Assembly: GCA_021770925.1 (NCBI GenBank)
Contig: JAETPY010000018.1
Span: 1-38,281 of the forward strand
DNA from: Erysipelotrichaceae bacterium
GTDB taxonomy: Bacteria > Bacillota_I > Bacilli_A > Erysipelotrichales > Coprobacillaceae
Direction of reading: 5' to 3'
DNA length: 38,281 nucleotides
This document shows positions 26,254 through 31,089 of the stretch, piece after piece. Made by a program: the position numbers and the translations under genes. Numbering within the stretch: position 1 is the first letter of the stretch; the number at the start of each line of letters is the position of its first letter. Under the pieces are notes generated by a model. It was not told where the DNA came from. It searched no databases and worked only from the letters and a program-made list of their open reading frames with translations.

Positions 26254-26904
26254 ATGGAGCAGACAGCTGTTTGGGTATTGTTTGTTGCAGCTTGTATCTT
26301 TTTGTTGTATTTTTTTAGTAAAAGAATGTTACAGATTAAAAAAATACAGCAGGATCAGCGTAACGAATATGAAGAGAATCGGATCAAGTATCGTAATTTT
26401 ACAAGTGAGATGTTCGATAAAACTTCTGATGATCAGCTCATCCATGCGGTAATGTTTCATATTATGGCAAAAGAAGATAAATTATATGAAGGTGATGAAA
26501 TTAATGGTACTTTAAAAGATATTTTAACACATGGAGAATTATTGATTTACACAATTTATCAAGTTGAATCTTCAATGGCAGGGAAACATGGTTCAGTTCA
26601 CACTTTTTTTATTAAAGAACCTTATTGTACATACCGACCTTATGTAAAAGAGGCTTTTGAAGCAGTTGGCTGTCATGATATAGTTGAGCTAATGGGGTCT
26701 GCTGAAAAATTATCATTGATGATTGAAAATGATGAAGAAATTGAAATAAATGATGATAGTGATTATGGTGGATACAATTTTGCAGATTATACAAATGCGT
26801 TGATGTCAATGCTTAAATCTTCAGGAATTGTATCGAAAACCAGCAAATTTATTAGAGAAAACAAAAAAGATTTTATTGATATGGAGGTAGTAAGTGATGA
26901 GTAA
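26254..26904 (+). CDS. Membrane-anchored protein of unknown function in the valS operon
   Basis: A 216-residue protein. Residues 5-24 form one membrane helix, then a basic and charged coil (about 25-50) and a soluble helical domain. The segment [46 protein letters not shown] is reminiscent of the DMP19-like DUF4375 family, but this is tentative. Near 170-180 there is an acidic stretch ([18 protein letters not shown]). It lies between the T-box and valS, overlaps the valS start by eight bases and shares its valine control. GGAGGTAATTT precedes the ATG. Why it is coupled to valine supply is unknown. Confidence 0.6.
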
Positions 26905-29518
26905 ACAATTAGAACCAAAATATAATCATCGTAAAGTTGAAGAAGGGAAATATCGTCATTGGATTGATAAGAAATATTTTGAAGCTGGGGATACAAGTAA
27001 AAAACCGTATGCAATTGTAATTCCGCCACCAAATGTAACAGGGAAATTACATTTAGGACATGCCTGGGATACAACTTTACAAGATATGATCATTCGCTAT
27101 AAAAGAATGCAGGGATATGATGCTCTATGGCTTCCAGGAATGGATCATGCCGGGATTGCCACACAAGCAAAAGTTGAAGCTAGAATGCGTGAAGAAGGAG
27201 TATCTCGTTATGATTTAGGACGTGAAGGCTTTTTAGAAAAAGCCTGGTCGTGGAAAGAAGAATATGCATCAATTATTCGAGCTCAATGGGAAAAATTGGG
27301 TTTGTCTCTAGATTATTCAAAAGAACGTTTTACTTTAGATGATGGTTTAAGTGATGCTGTTAAAGAAGTATTTGTTAAGTTATACAACGAGGGTTTAATT
27401 TATCAAGGAAAAAGAATTATTAACTGGGATCCTGTTCAAAGAACAGCATTAAGTAATATTGAAGTAATCCATAAAGAAATTGAAGGGGCGATGTATTATT
27501 TTAAATATCAAATCGTTGATAGTGATGAACAATTAATTATAGCTACTACACGTCCAGAAACAATGTTTGCTGATCAAGCAATTTTTGTACATCCTGATGA
27601 TGAAAGATATACTCATCTAGTTGGTAAAAAAGCTATTAATCCTGCTAATGGTGAGGCTTTACCAATTATGGCAGACAGCTATATTGATATGTCATTTGGA
27701 ACAGCAGTAATGAAATGTACACCTGCTCATGATCCTAATGACTTTGCGCTAGCAAAAAAATATAATCTAGAAATGCCAGTTTGTATGAATGATGATGGAA
27801 CAATGAATGAACTGGCTGGTAAATACCAGGGGATGGATCGTTTTGAGTGTCGAAAAGCTCTAGTAGCTGATTTTAAGGCTGCTGGTGTTGTTGATCATAT
27901 TGAAAAACATATGCATCAAGTAGGACATTCAGAAAGAAGTAATGCTATAGTAGAGCCATATTTATCAAAACAGTGGTTTGTTAAAATGAAACCATTAGCT
28001 AAAGCTGCTTTAGAGAATCAATTAAAAGATTCTAAAGTAAATTTTGTACCTGAACGTTTTGAAAAAACCTTTAATCAATGGATGGAAAATATTGAAGACT
28101 GGTGCATTTCCCGTCAGCTATGGTGGGGACATCAGGTACCAGCCTGGTATCATAAAGAAACTGGTGAAGTATATGTTGGTAAAACAGCTCCTGAAGACAT
28201 AGAAAACTGGGTTCAGGATGAGGATGTTTTAGATACCTGGTTCTCTAGTGCTCTTTGGCCATTTTCAACTTTAGGCTGGCCAAATACTGATAGTGAGTTA
28301 TTTAAACGGTATTTTCCAACTAATACTTTGGTAACTGGTTATGATATTATTTTCTTCTGGGTAAGCAGAATGATTTTTCAATCGTTACATTTTACTGATC
28401 AAAGACCATTTGAGCATGTTTTGATTCATGGCTTAATTCGTGACGAACAAGGAAGAAAAATGTCTAAATCATTAGGTAATGGTGTGGATCCAATGGATGT
28501 TATTGATGAATATGGGGCTGATACATTACGCTTCTTCTTAACAACAAATTCTGCTCCAGGAATGGATTTACGCTATATTCCTGAAAAACTTGAAGCTTCA
28601 TGGAATTTTATTAATAAAATTTGGAATAGTGCAAGATTTGTTTTAATGAATATTGATGAATCAATGAAGTATGAAGATTTATCATTTGAGAATCTTAATT
28701 TATGTGATAGATGGATTTTAAATCGTTTGAATGAAGTGATTCATGAAGTTGATATAAATATGGATAAATTTGAATTTGTTAATGTTGGAAGTGAATTATA
28801 TAAATTTATCTGGGACGATTTTTGTTCATGGTATATTGAACTTACTAAAGTCCATTTAAATAGCGATAACGCTTTAGAAAAACAGGCTAGCTTAAATACT
28901 TTAGTTTATGTATTAAATGCAATTGTTAAGATGCTGCATCCATTCATGCCGTTTGTAACAGAAGAGATTTTTCAGGCTATTCCACATCTTGAAGAGTCTA
29001 TCTGTATTGCTTCATGGCCAGAAGTAAATGATGAATTTAATGATGAGACAATTAATGATCAATTTATGTATTTAATTGATATTGTTAAAGGTATTCGTGA
29101 AATTAGAACACAGTATACAATTAAAAATGCAATTGAAGTAGCTTATTCAATCACTACTAAAGATACTGCTTTAGAAGCATTAATGAATCAGTGTTTACCA
29201 TACATTAAGAAATTATGTAATGCAGTATGTCTTGGTTATAATCTTGATGCTAATGGTGAGGTAGCTAATATTACAATTAAAGGTGGTAATTCGCTATTGG
29301 TTGAATTAGGTGATTATATTGATAAAGATGCTGAAAAAGAAAAACTGATAACTCAGTTAAAGAAACTTGAAGGTGAAATCAAGCGTTGTCAAAACATGCT
29401 TTCAAATGAAAAGTTTATTTCTAAAGCACCTGAAGAAAAAGTAGAATTGGAAAGAAGTAAGTTAGCTGATTACCAATCTAAATATGATGCAGTTAAAGAA
29501 AAATTAGAAACAATGTAA
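26897..29518 (+). CDS. valS: Valyl-tRNA synthetase
   Basis: An 873-residue class Ia synthetase that charges tRNA-Val. HIGH-type motif HLGH (52-55, in [13 protein letters not shown]), the CP1 editing domain in the middle ([13 protein letters not shown]), KMSKS at 521-525, the anticodon-binding helical domain, and a C-terminal coiled-coil tRNA-binding arm (about 810-873), all at the usual length. The ATG at 26897 with GGAGG 9 bases upstream is preferred; a GTG one codon before is possible. Controlled by the T-box 870 bases upstream. In Bacillus folC follows; here a terminator and two small peptides follow. Confidence 0.97.
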
Positions 29519-29524
29519 ATGATT

Positions 29525-29556
29525 AAGCTGTTGATGATATTTCAACAGCTTTTTTG
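29525..29556 (+). terminator. Terminator after valS
   Basis: AAGCTGTTGA (29525-29534) pairs with TCAACAGCTT (29542-29551), followed by U residues. Confidence 0.88.
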
Positions 29557-29612
29557 TATAAAAATTATTTTTTTTGAAGTAAAATTAATAATTTAAGTGT
29601 AAATAATAATAA

Positions 29613-29638
29613 GAGGTTTAGTGGAAGTGTGAGGTTAA
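29613..29638 (+). promoter_or_regulatory. Direct repeat upstream of the peptide pair
   Basis: GAGGTTTA (29613-29620) and GAGGTTAA (29631-29638) repeat 18 bp apart in the short leader of the peptide operon. No standard promoter stands out in the 100 bases after the valS terminator, so control by a dedicated regulator is possible. Confidence 0.3.
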
Positions 29639-29659
29639 ATTATAAGGAGGAAATGAAAA

Positions 29660-29818
29660 ATGAACGAGTTACAATTATGTAGTCAGATGCAAATTTCTGG
29701 TGGTGGGTTTACTACTGTATTCTTTTGTGTGATCATGGGAACGGCAATTTATAAGATGGCAAAGTCAACGGCTGGAAGACTATCTATTCCTAAAATTATT
29801 TCAATTGAGTGGCGTTAA
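29660..29818 (+). CDS. Small peptide A with Gly-Gly leader-like N-terminus (52 aa)
   Basis: A 52-residue peptide with a strong AAGGAGG ribosome binding site. The N-terminus is MNELQLCSQMQISGG, followed by Gly-Phe-Thr-Thr, a hydrophobic stretch (FFCVIMGTAIY), and a basic tail ending SIEWR. The first 15 residues match peptide B at 10 positions (M, E, L, S, Q, M, Q, S, G, G) and I/V is conservative, while the rest differs. A conserved leader with a variable hydrophobic-basic core is the pattern of double-glycine bacteriocins and signalling peptides cleaved by C39 peptidases, though Met at -6 and no Leu at -7 make it atypical. No transporter or immunity gene is seen nearby. Alternative: an exported or membrane microprotein. 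Confidence 0.65.
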   Translation: MNELQLCSQMQISGGGFTTVFFCVIMGTAIYKMAKSTAGRLSIPKIISIEWR

Positions 29819-29819
29819 A

Positions 29820-29963
29820 ATGAAGGAATTGCCAGTTTCATCACAAATGCAGGTCAGTGGTGGATTTGTACTACCTTTTATTATTTCGTTGATTGCTGTT
29901 AGTAGTGCTGTTAATATTGCAAGAGTAGTAAGAAGTCATTATTCTATTACTAGAAGTCGTTAA
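29820..29963 (+). CDS. Small peptide B with Gly-Gly leader-like N-terminus (47 aa)
   Basis: A 47-residue partner of peptide A, starting one base after its stop. The N-terminus is MKELPVSSQMQVSGG, then FVLPFIISLIAVSSAVNIARV as a hydrophobic helix and a very basic tail (five Arg and one His in the last 16 residues). With peptide A it forms a tandem of similar-size precursors sharing one leader, as in two-peptide (class IIb) bacteriocins. GAGTGG upstream is a weak ribosome binding site, so translation is probably coupled to peptide A. A strong terminator follows directly. Confidence 0.65.
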   Translation: MKELPVSSQMQVSGGFVLPFIISLIAVSSAVNIARVVRSHYSITRSR

Positions 29964-29994
29964 TATGAAAGGCTAAAAAGCCTTTCATATTTTA
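29963..29994 (+). terminator. Terminator of the peptide operon
   Basis: ATATGAAAGGC (29963-29973) pairs with GCCTTTCATAT (29980-29990), 6-base loop, then U residues. Confidence 0.85.
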
Positions 29995-30012
29995 TAACTA
30001 TCTGCATATTCT
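29985..30012 (+). promoter_or_regulatory. Possible sigma-E-type promoter for the SPOR gene
   Basis: TCATATT (29985-29991), 13-base spacer, CATATTCT (30005-30012). It has the same -35, the same spacer length and the same 16-base gap to the ATG as the candidate before spoVID. Confidence 0.45.
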
Positions 30013-30028
30013 TTATTGGAGGTGGAAT

Positions 30029-30415
30029 ATGAAAATAGTTAGATTTGTTATCGTAGTATCTATAGCTTTATCGTTATTATTTAGTTGTTTTTATTTGAAA
30101 TTTTTTTCATCAATTGGAAGTAAAATTAATGCTTACATAGTACAGGTGGGAATTTATAAACAAGATGAAAATGCTAATGAAATGATTACTAAATTAACTG
30201 AACTGCAGCAGCCAAATTATAAGTATCAAAAAGACAATAATTTTGTTGTTATTACAGGAGTATTTTTAGATGAAGAGGAGGCTAAAAAAATGGGAAATAC
30301 AATTAGTGAACAAGGAATTACATGTGTAATTAAACAAGTTAAATTCACTAATAATTTTAAAGAGATTATTGAACAGCAAAACTATGAAGCAATTATTAAA
30401 GAGTTGGGATCATGA
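30029..30415 (+). CDS. SPOR-domain membrane protein, SpoIIB-like
   Basis: A 128-residue protein with an N-terminal membrane helix (about 4-25) and a single SPOR domain (about 37-110: AYIVQVGIYKQDENANEMITKL...VVITGVFLDEEEAKKMGNTISEQGITCVIKQVKF). SPOR domains bind denuded glycan at septa. The position before radC and mreC equals that of B. subtilis spoIIB, which helps septal thinning and localises engulfment proteins, but the protein is much shorter and lacks the long N-terminal region, so orthology is inferred from position and domain. GGAGGTGGAAT fixes the start. It overlaps radC by four bases. Confidence 0.72.
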   Translation: MKIVRFVIVVSIALSLLFSCFYLKFFSSIGSKINAYIVQVGIYKQDENANEMITKLTELQQPNYKYQKDNNFVVITGVFLDEEEAKKMGNTISEQGITCVIKQVKFTNNFKEIIEQQNYEAIIKELGS

Positions 30416-31089
30416 AAATAAAAAATTATCCTCAGGAAGAACGACCACGGGAAAAAGCTTATTACTATGGAATTGAAAGCTTAAATAATGTAGAACTGCT
30501 TGCATTGATTTTGAGAACAGGAAATAAACAAGAGTCAGTTTTAGAACTGGCACAACGAGTAATTAATGAAGTTGGTGGATTAGCATATTTAAAAGATGTT
30601 ACTTATCACCAGCTTGTTTTAATTAAGGGAATTAAAAAGGCAAAGGCAATTGAAATATTGGCAGTAGTAGAGCTTACAAAAAGATTAAAACAGCCTCAAA
30701 GTATTATGCCTGTCATTAAAGAGCCTAAAGATGGTTATAATCTAGTTAAAGATAAATTAATGTTTGAACAGCAGGAAAGAGTAATTATTTTATGCTTAAA
30801 TTCAAGATTAGAAGTAATGAAAGAAAAAACTGTATTTATTGGAAGTAATAATATTTCAATCATTAGTGGACGAGAGTTATTTAAAGAAGCATTGATTTGC
30901 GGCAGCAGTCGAATTATGGTGATACATAATCATCCTTCTGGTAACCCTGCTCCTTCACTACAGGATATTGAAACTACTAAACGTTTATATAAAATGGCTG
31001 AGGAATTAGAAATTGAAGTTATTGATCATTTAATAATTGGAAGAAAGAAATTTTATAGTTTTGCATCAAAAGAGATTATTGAAGCCTAA
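30412..31089 (+). CDS. radC: RadC/YsxA-type JAB domain protein
   Basis: A 225-residue RadC-family protein. The N-terminal region is helix-hairpin-helix-like (about 15-80; ...LIKGIKKAKAIEILAVVEL). The C-terminal JAMM/MPN metalloprotease-like domain carries HNHPSGNPAPSLQD, with the HxH...D metal ligands intact. Despite its name the family is not proven to repair DNA; a role in processing stalled forks has been suggested. It overlaps the SPOR gene, so it is co-transcribed. In Bacillus maf lies upstream and mreB downstream; both are missing here. Confidence 0.92.
   Translation: MKIKNYPQEERPREKAYYYGIESLNNVELLALILRTGNKQESVLELAQRVINEVGGLAYLKDVTYHQLVLIKGIKKAKAIEILAVVELTKRLKQPQSIMPVIKEPKDGYNLVKDKLMFEQQERVIILCLNSRLEVMKEKTVFIGSNNISIISGRELFKEALICGSSRIMVIHNHPSGNPAPSLQDIETTKRLYKMAEELEIEVIDHLIIGRKKFYSFASKEIIEA

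Follow-up and report, generated by a model that had tools for sequence, protein, structure and literature searches.

A radC-linked double-glycine-leader micropeptide family in gut Bacilli, probably matured by a C39 protease encoded at a distant fixed locus

Main finding

Our analysis suggests that a 52-residue peptide, P1, encoded upstream of radC, is a conserved micropeptide of the membrane or cell envelope whose N-terminal leader is removed by a C39 protease encoded at a distant, fixed locus; we consider this reading probable. Judged from their sequences, P1 and the neighbouring P2 are double-glycine-leader peptides, and by its genomic context the P1 family is chromosomally fixed and syntenic in many gut Bacilli. 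We infer that this C39 protease cuts P1, and likewise the final location of the core and its structural or regulatory role in the envelope. The comparisons below indicate that the leader is mostly kept where the distant fixed C39 gene is present and missing where that gene is missing. The usual reading of GG-leader peptides is as bacteriocins or pheromones; the P1 family belongs to the core genome and is syntenic across families.

The window is the whole stretch of 38,281 nucleotides that was analysed (contig JAETPY010000018.1, positions 1 to 38,281). Below, G and L numbers denote genomes and loci, f1 is the window's own family (Coprobacillaceae), f2 is its sister family, i.e. the other family of the same order, and f5, f8, f11, f12, f16, f19, f24 and f25 are other families of the class.

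The locus

The features discussed are as follows, with positions in the window.

26894..29518, + strand: valS, the common upstream neighbour of P1 (open reading frame, synteny)
29644..29650, + strand: ribosome-binding site AAGGAGG of P1 (sequence)
29660..29818, + strand: P1, ATG to stop, 52 aa (open reading frame, family homologues, purifying selection)
29660..29704, + strand: P1 leader, residues 1-15 (MNELQLCSQMQISGG), with the predicted cut after G15
29705..29815, + strand: predicted mature core of P1, 37 aa (alignments and AlphaFold2 model)
29820..29963, + strand: P2, ATG to stop, 47 aa, a probable diverging tandem paralogue of P1
29962..29991, + strand: hairpin 3' of P2, probable terminator (fold z -6.2)
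30029..30415, + strand: SPOR-domain membrane protein (PF05036, 38.8 bits against a cut-off of 21)
30412..31089, + strand: radC, the neighbour that stays with the peptide (synteny)

P1 (52 aa) and P2 (47 aa) are real open reading frames on the same strand with one base between them, as the original prediction had it. Its further observations, namely a strong Shine-Dalgarno sequence before P1 (AAGGAGG at 29644-29650), 10 of 15 identical residues at the two N-termini with both ending in GG, and no processing gene adjoining the pair, were confirmed as well. The claim of a terminator after P2 held in part. There is a strong hairpin at 29962-29991, the 51-base stretch with it folding at -17.5 kcal/mol (z -6.2), but a simple terminator scan does not list it, probably because the T run behind the hairpin is short; we regard the hairpin as a likely terminator. 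No strong ribosome-binding site precedes P2, whose translation is probably coupled to that of P1. The SPOR-domain gene at 30029..30415 occupies what we take to be the position of spoIIB in B. subtilis.

Pairs of ATG-initiated reading frames of at least 40 aa each arose in 27 of 2000 dinucleotide shuffles of the valS-SPOR gap, and none of the 2000 gave paired frames with 10/15 identical starts (the best had 4). Chance reading frames are ruled out by these shuffles together with the purifying selection described below. An RNA element was also considered and rejected, the region 29400-30100 having no Rfam match at the gathering threshold.

Distribution and synteny of the family

A profile of f1 and f2 members was run over 315 genomes of the order and matched 105 of them, i.e. 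40 of 43 in f1 and 65 of 272 in f2 (64 without the spurious match of G311, a 304-aa frame). Besides this one, the f2 matches comprise 21 with a leader, 42 that start at the core and an ambiguous one (G268). The f2 forms were sorted into leader and leaderless by the start of the profile match, with G296 and G297 as exceptions that match early and are read as leaderless. The f2 loci actually read cover 14 of the 21 leader and 26 of the 42 leaderless ones, and seven of the 42 are weak matches from a single genus, g21 (E 1e-4 to 1e-3; one read).

Across the class 395 genomes were sampled, and the profile matches 89 of them: 27 in the order, 51 in f8 (41), f19 (8), f24 (1) and f25 (1), and 11 weaker ones in f5, f11, f12 and f16. 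All 17 sequences read among the 51 carry a leader. Five of the six f12 matches cover only positions 1 to 29-34, and the two read are a different GG peptide with its own C39-ABC transporter; the one f12 peptide scanned passes the lactobin/cerein cut-off (24.7 vs 21.5 bits). At L285 (G580) and L286 (G373) a GG peptide ending in ...IDGxVRPLxC.., lactobin/cerein-like in look, lies next to a C39-ABC. The peptide at L285 is near cdd and era, and the f12 peptide may itself be fixed in f12.

Named relatives of P1 (23 loci, from which the window's own record is possibly excluded) are found in Thomasclavelia saccharogumia (88%) and T. cocleata (92%), and further in Clostridium spiroforme, Faecalibacillus, Massilimicrobiota and Sharpea azabuensis; the NCBI taxonomy places Thomasclavelia and Sharpea in Coprobacillaceae, Erysipelotrichales. 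Thomasclavelia is the most likely genus for the window itself. Searches of an open-access library gave no description of the P1 family. A survey of small proteins in a bacterial community that includes C. ramosum gives, in the available part of PMC7903761, four new C. ramosum proteins of 20, 31, 44 and 58 aa, none having 52 or 45 aa.

The gene radC follows the peptide on the same strand in all 33 f1 loci whose sequence extends far enough (a further one, L022, is cut off by a contig edge). It is also downstream in all 20 f2 loci read (43 f2 genomes were matched in an earlier profile search) and in 16 of the 18 loci read from other families, L277 and L284 being the exceptions, which makes 69 of the 71 loci read with enough sequence. 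The link to radC persists where valS is no longer adjacent (e.g. L100, L273 and L274), and the SPOR gene lies between peptide and radC in most f1 and some f2 loci. Neither G017 nor G031 has a P1 match, which is no evidence on loss of P1 because radC was not found in either assembly. At L284 (G463, f16), a weak match with E 5.5e-6, a GG-leader peptide with a helix and no Trp tail lies upstream of rplU. Searches of phages gave no P1 match and those of plasmids a single one (E 6, Paracoccus, 60% cover), and the idea that the peptide is cargo of mobile elements was discarded on these grounds.

Leader and core

GG is found at residues 14-15 in 30 of the 30 f1 sequences compared, with a hydrophobic residue at -12 in 30/30 and at -4 in 29/30. 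Position -7 is hydrophobic in 4/30 f1 sequences vs 13/17 from other families of the class; the non-hydrophobic -7 of the other 26 f1 leaders makes them a weak fit to the LahT/ComA rule as given in the available part of PMC6363468. Fully canonical leaders (hydrophobic -12, -7 and -4 plus GG) nevertheless occur in 4/30 f1, 3/11 f2 and 5/17 other-family sequences, i.e. in 12 of 58 rows, so the leader is not the new type proposed originally. Outside f1 the leader end was placed by hand at a Gly (28 rows), so that the Gly at -1 is there by construction; a G at -2 is present in 6/11 f2 and 9/17 other-family leaders.

The N-terminus had been expected to be more conserved than the rest of the peptide. 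Over 30 distinct f1 sequences, tandem copies included, the mean column entropy is instead 1.39 bits for the leader, 1.50 for the hydrophobic part and 1.00 for the tail, so in P1 the tail is the best-conserved part and the N-terminus does not exceed it in conservation, an outcome that the original prediction had named as one that would refute it. Among the closest congeners the leader is also well kept.

In the alignments the P1 core consists of a hydrophobic helix followed by a basic GRxSIPxxxSIEWR tail. The AlphaFold2 model of P1 (mean pLDDT 76, pTM 0.40) has a helix at 17-35 and strands at 39-43 and 47-51, and the positions invariant across f1 and f2 (31 rows) are Lys32, Gly39 and Trp51. The dN/dS ratio of P1 ranges from 0.04 to 0.25 over nine finite pairs of five congeners (0.12 for G003 and 0.04 for G001), the three closest pairs giving 0.051/0.43, 0.034/0.91 and 0.051/0.81. 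For P2 it is 0.11 to 0.46 over six pairs of four congeners (0.078/0.70, 0.169/0.42 and 0.225/0.49 among them), i.e. purifying selection is weaker than on P1. This selection is independent support for both frames being coding. Neither peptide has a Pfam or NCBIfam match at E 10, and inspection of the two cores found no GxxxG.

The C39-ABC transporter in the window's family

A C39 peptidase ABC transporter, which the original prediction suggested looking for elsewhere in the genome, is encoded on contig C20 (8373-10448), unlinked to P1 and P2. It has 691 aa and is the single above-cut-off C39 protein in this genome, which is 89.4% complete; weaker matches are a 233-aa protein at C97 (19.8 bits, below the cut-off) and another at C176. 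Its PF03412 (121.2-124.8 bits), PF00664 (49.9 bits) and PF00005 (75.3 bits) domains are in the usual order, and the Q-C-H-D residues, Walker A and the signature LSSGQ are present. The gene lies between argD and ybeY-cdd-era, with a 1-kb reading frame intervening before ybeY. This frame (L004, 10524-11525, 333 aa) is presumably Rpn/transposase-like, and distant relatives of it precede the C39-ABC gene in L064 and L123.

The C39-ABC gene is directly before ybeY in all 17 other f1 loci that were read past the gene, a count that leaves out L113 and L123, which end too early, and the second C39-ABC of G028 (L121, 741 aa), which does not adjoin ybeY. Of 15 aligned f1 transporters, 14 keep the Walker motifs and the protease residues Gln, Cys, His and Asp, with a variable signature motif. 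The C39-ABC of G016 has a Thr in the Cys column, with two Cys shortly after it, and no Walker A or signature, while His and Asp are kept and the C39 domain still scores 37.9 bits, above the cut-off. The decayed frame (L180, 540 aa) is still located before ybeY. G016 is 98% complete, and both the profile and reading found no P1 in its valS-SPOR gap. P1 is present and no C39 match was found in G009, an f1 genome that is 69% complete.

Stand-alone C39 proteins and leaderless peptides in the sister family

In f2 a stand-alone C39 protein of 111-127 aa is encoded directly before ybeY in 15 of the 15 loci holding one, seven of which were fetched through a C39 match and eight through the position of era. 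The 15 f2 loci fetched through era have the stand-alone C39 in 8/8 leader and 0/7 leaderless cases. Counted genome-wide as C39 frames of 116-141 aa, it is found in 17 of the 21 leader genomes, 0 of the 42 leaderless ones and 1 of the 207 peptide-free ones (G280, 68% complete), and by genus in 6/6 with the leader vs 0/11 without. Fisher's test returns 6e-12 when genomes are counted and 8e-5 when genera are, values that overstate the association because the species are related.

The leader genomes with no detected C39 are G261, G278, G286 and G287 (79-89% complete), and the ambiguous G268, whose N-terminus ends in FGG, has no C39 match either. Several C39 matches fall outside the length rule: a 165-aa frame in the leaderless G211, where two full C39-ABCs are encoded as well, and one frame each in the peptide-free G084 (167 aa) and G158 (199 aa). 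The leaderless G199 has a large C39-ABC and the leaderless G251 a weak PF03412 match (1.4e-4).

Across the 17 aligned C39 rows (12 stand-alone, 5 fused), the Cys, His and Asp do not vary. PF03412 scores range from 56.3 bits for the stand-alone protein of L153 to 17.1 bits for that of L182, the latter below the cut-off of 22. The model of a stand-alone C39 (pLDDT 91) has the C39 domain of LahT as its best PDB match (6mpz, TM 0.75). These proteins start at or near the catalytic Cys and do not have the Gln six residues upstream of it. In LahT the distance from that Gln to the oxyanion-derived oxygen is 4.3 A, according to the available part of PMC6363468, so the stand-alone C39 could remain active without it. 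The stand-alone proteins group together in the C39 tree, which has long branches and includes rows from 6 of 24 other-transporter loci, two apparently cut at the wrong Cys. The tree does not show the fused and stand-alone proteases to be one lineage.

We read 20 further f2 loci, and 19 of them start at the core with a ribosome-binding site, the exception being G268. The Met of the leaderless forms is 16-21 residues before the conserved Lys (16 sequences; Arg in one). The predicted +1 residue of leader forms is 18-23 residues before it in f2 (10 of 11 measurable), 21-22 in other families (8 forms) and 16-17 in f1 (12 forms). The leaderless Met thus falls at about the predicted +1 position, suggesting a new start of the gene close to where the mature peptide is predicted to begin. 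As leaders are present in the sequences read from f8, f19, f24 and f25, having a leader was probably the ancestral state. The RadC tree requires four leader changes (three forced by supported branches) and the Era tree two (one forced), pointing to between 1 and 4 independent losses.

P2 and other tandem copies

P2 is present in 8 of 8 same-genus loci besides the window's own and in 0 of the 25 other f1 loci compared. The P1 profile matches the P2 of G008 (1.9e-7), G004 (3.9e-7) and the window (0.0067), and also those of G005 (with a stop in the matched range), G002 and G001; it gave no match to those of G003, G006 and G007. The call of P2 as a paralogue comes from these whole-length matches, because the core-only comparison of P1 with P2 is weak (hhalign probability 13.7). 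The second peptide of G005 has 45 aa.

Three P1 copies lie in tandem in genus g7, and G022 gave two matches. As tandem duplication recurs in this way, P2 is best read as a diverging copy rather than half of a toxin, and it is a probable young tandem copy of P1. Of the five loci L020-L022, L079 and L089 (g7 and relatives), four have a middle copy that resembles the window's P1 less than the other two copies do. Other GG peptides adjoin P1 in G020 and G010; those at L019 (G010) are two small GG-leader reading frames unlike P1 that overlap each other.

Proposed reading and alternatives

The working part of P1 would be a core of 37-44 residues, with one hydrophobic helix and a basic tail that ends close to a Trp. 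It would be synthesised behind a removable N-terminal double-glycine leader, which the C39 cysteine protease encoded upstream of ybeY-cdd-era would take off. In f1, where the protease is fused to an ABC exporter, cleavage of the leader would go together with transport of the core, either out of the membrane or into it. In f2 the C39 stands alone, so cutting there would not be tied to that exporter, and in species lacking the C39 the gene begins at the core itself. P2 probably shares leader and transporter with P1. By the positive-inside rule the basic tail suggests insertion with the tail inside; this would apply to species lacking such an exporter, and the ABC part in f1 may place the tail outside. 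The core is kept in all three settings, i.e. with a C39-ABC, with a C39 alone and with no leader. We would expect a structural or regulatory role in the cell envelope rather than killing. An envelope role would fit the position near the spoIIB-like, mre and min genes, and a role with RadC would fit the tightest linkage.

The original prediction offered P1 and P2 as a candidate two-peptide bacteriocin or signal. That they are a class IIb two-peptide bacteriocin, exported together by the C39-ABC and killing related strains, we now find very doubtful. The GG leaders, the paired layout, the hydrophobic-plus-basic cores and the presence of a C39-ABC in the genome are all as one would expect of such a system, P2 evolves faster, and two of six relatives scanned give sub-threshold matches to bacteriocin-leader models (TIGR01847/TIGR03949). 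The P1 core is, however, conserved, fixed and syntenic with no sign of mobility; its neighbours are valS, the SPOR gene and radC with no immunity-like gene among them, and the transporter is on another contig. Neither peptide matches a Pfam or NCBIfam model, whereas the f12 GG peptide passes the lactobin/cerein cut-off. The restriction of P2 to same-genus loci, the lack of GxxxG in both cores and the leaderless relatives that retain the core also disagree with a two-peptide toxin. It seems unlikely that P1 is a core-genome signal, secreted in mature form through the C39-ABC and detected by the producing cells or related ones. There is no receptor, kinase or regulator gene near P1 within the window, the conserved hydrophobic helix with its basic tail looks membrane-bound, and the f2 core is kept either together with an unfused C39 or entirely leaderless. 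In favour of a signal are the fixed place of the f1 exporter, the motifs of the protease and the Walker motifs of the ATPase, intact in 14 of 15 aligned proteins, and pneumococcal GG peptides, which reportedly include signals.

It is also conceivable, though quite unlikely, that P1 is an uncut membrane protein with the GG segment as a cytoplasmic tail of other function, the C39 near ybeY having other substrates. The cutting of P1 is a prediction, G268 and the four f2 leader genomes above have no detected C39, and the GG drifts outside f1, 5/11 f2 and 8/17 other-family leaders having no G at -2. An uncut protein would hardly account for the GG in 30/30 f1 sequences, for leader presence tracking C39 presence, for leaderless starts falling near the predicted cut, or for the loss of P1 in G016 together with the decay of its C39-ABC.

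As an extension of the preferred reading, a membrane or envelope peptide with a C39-cleaved leader, we tentatively suggest, while thinking it more doubtful than probable, that the C39 is a maturase for a membrane micropeptide, separable from export, and that the leader holds the core off the membrane until removed. Lineages losing the protease would then re-start the gene at the mature end, one lineage losing the peptide would have let the protease-transporter decay, and the core, radC-linked across the class, would be an ancient and uncharacterised part of the envelope in gut Bacilli. With a core that persists and a leader and protease that are for the most part present or absent together, the family offers a natural experiment on the purpose of the leader and the C39. 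P1 is also likely to be what an unlinked, core-genome C39 transporter acts on in Thomasclavelia, Faecalibacillus and other gut bacteria of this kind, and it would be a small, conserved peptide of the membrane, linked to radC.

Comparison with known systems

Like PCAT1/CtA, ComA/CSP and LahT, the P1 system has a GG-ended leader, hydrophobic residues at -12 and -4 and a C39-ABC of the usual domain order, and the stand-alone C39 model of f2 resembles the C39 domain of LahT. Unlike in those systems, the peptide and the transporter are in separate fixed core-genome loci, the tail is more conserved than the leader, leaderless orthologues exist and the protease can stand alone.

Two further systems for comparison are non-bacteriocin ones. 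For MAM of Faecalibacterium, also a GG-leader protein of a gut bacterium, the available part of PMC12184118 proposes cleavage and transfer to the envelope by a PCAT that strictly co-occurs with it. As described there, MAM differs from P1 in being larger, near its PCAT and tied to Faecalibacterium, with a surface lattice reported, and no leaderless orthologues of it are seen there, while the P1 family has them. The EbfG1-4/PteB system of Synechococcus elongatus has small GG proteins with a non-bacteriocin role, as in our reading of P1, and efficient secretion there needs the catalytic Cys of a C39 transporter (available part of PMC4997328). It differs in being needed for biofilm development (same source), and the likeness to P1 is one of description. 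Unlinked core-genome loci, leaderless orthologues and a stand-alone protease set the P1 family apart from both. FapD is, like the f2 C39, a protease unfused to an ABC transporter, with an essential Cys in FapD; in the available part of PMC5557850 it has a Sec signal and is periplasmic, whereas the f2 proteins have no signal sequence. The latter should be cytoplasmic, because they start near the catalytic Cys with no such sequence.

The best NCBIfam match of the C39-ABC in the window's genome is the Mbov_0121-type peptidase ABC transporter (NF045998, 295.6 bits), which is also the best match of one stand-alone C39 (30.3 bits), both well below the family cut-off of 500 bits. The likeness to the Mbov_0121 model hints at a related system in Mollicutes.
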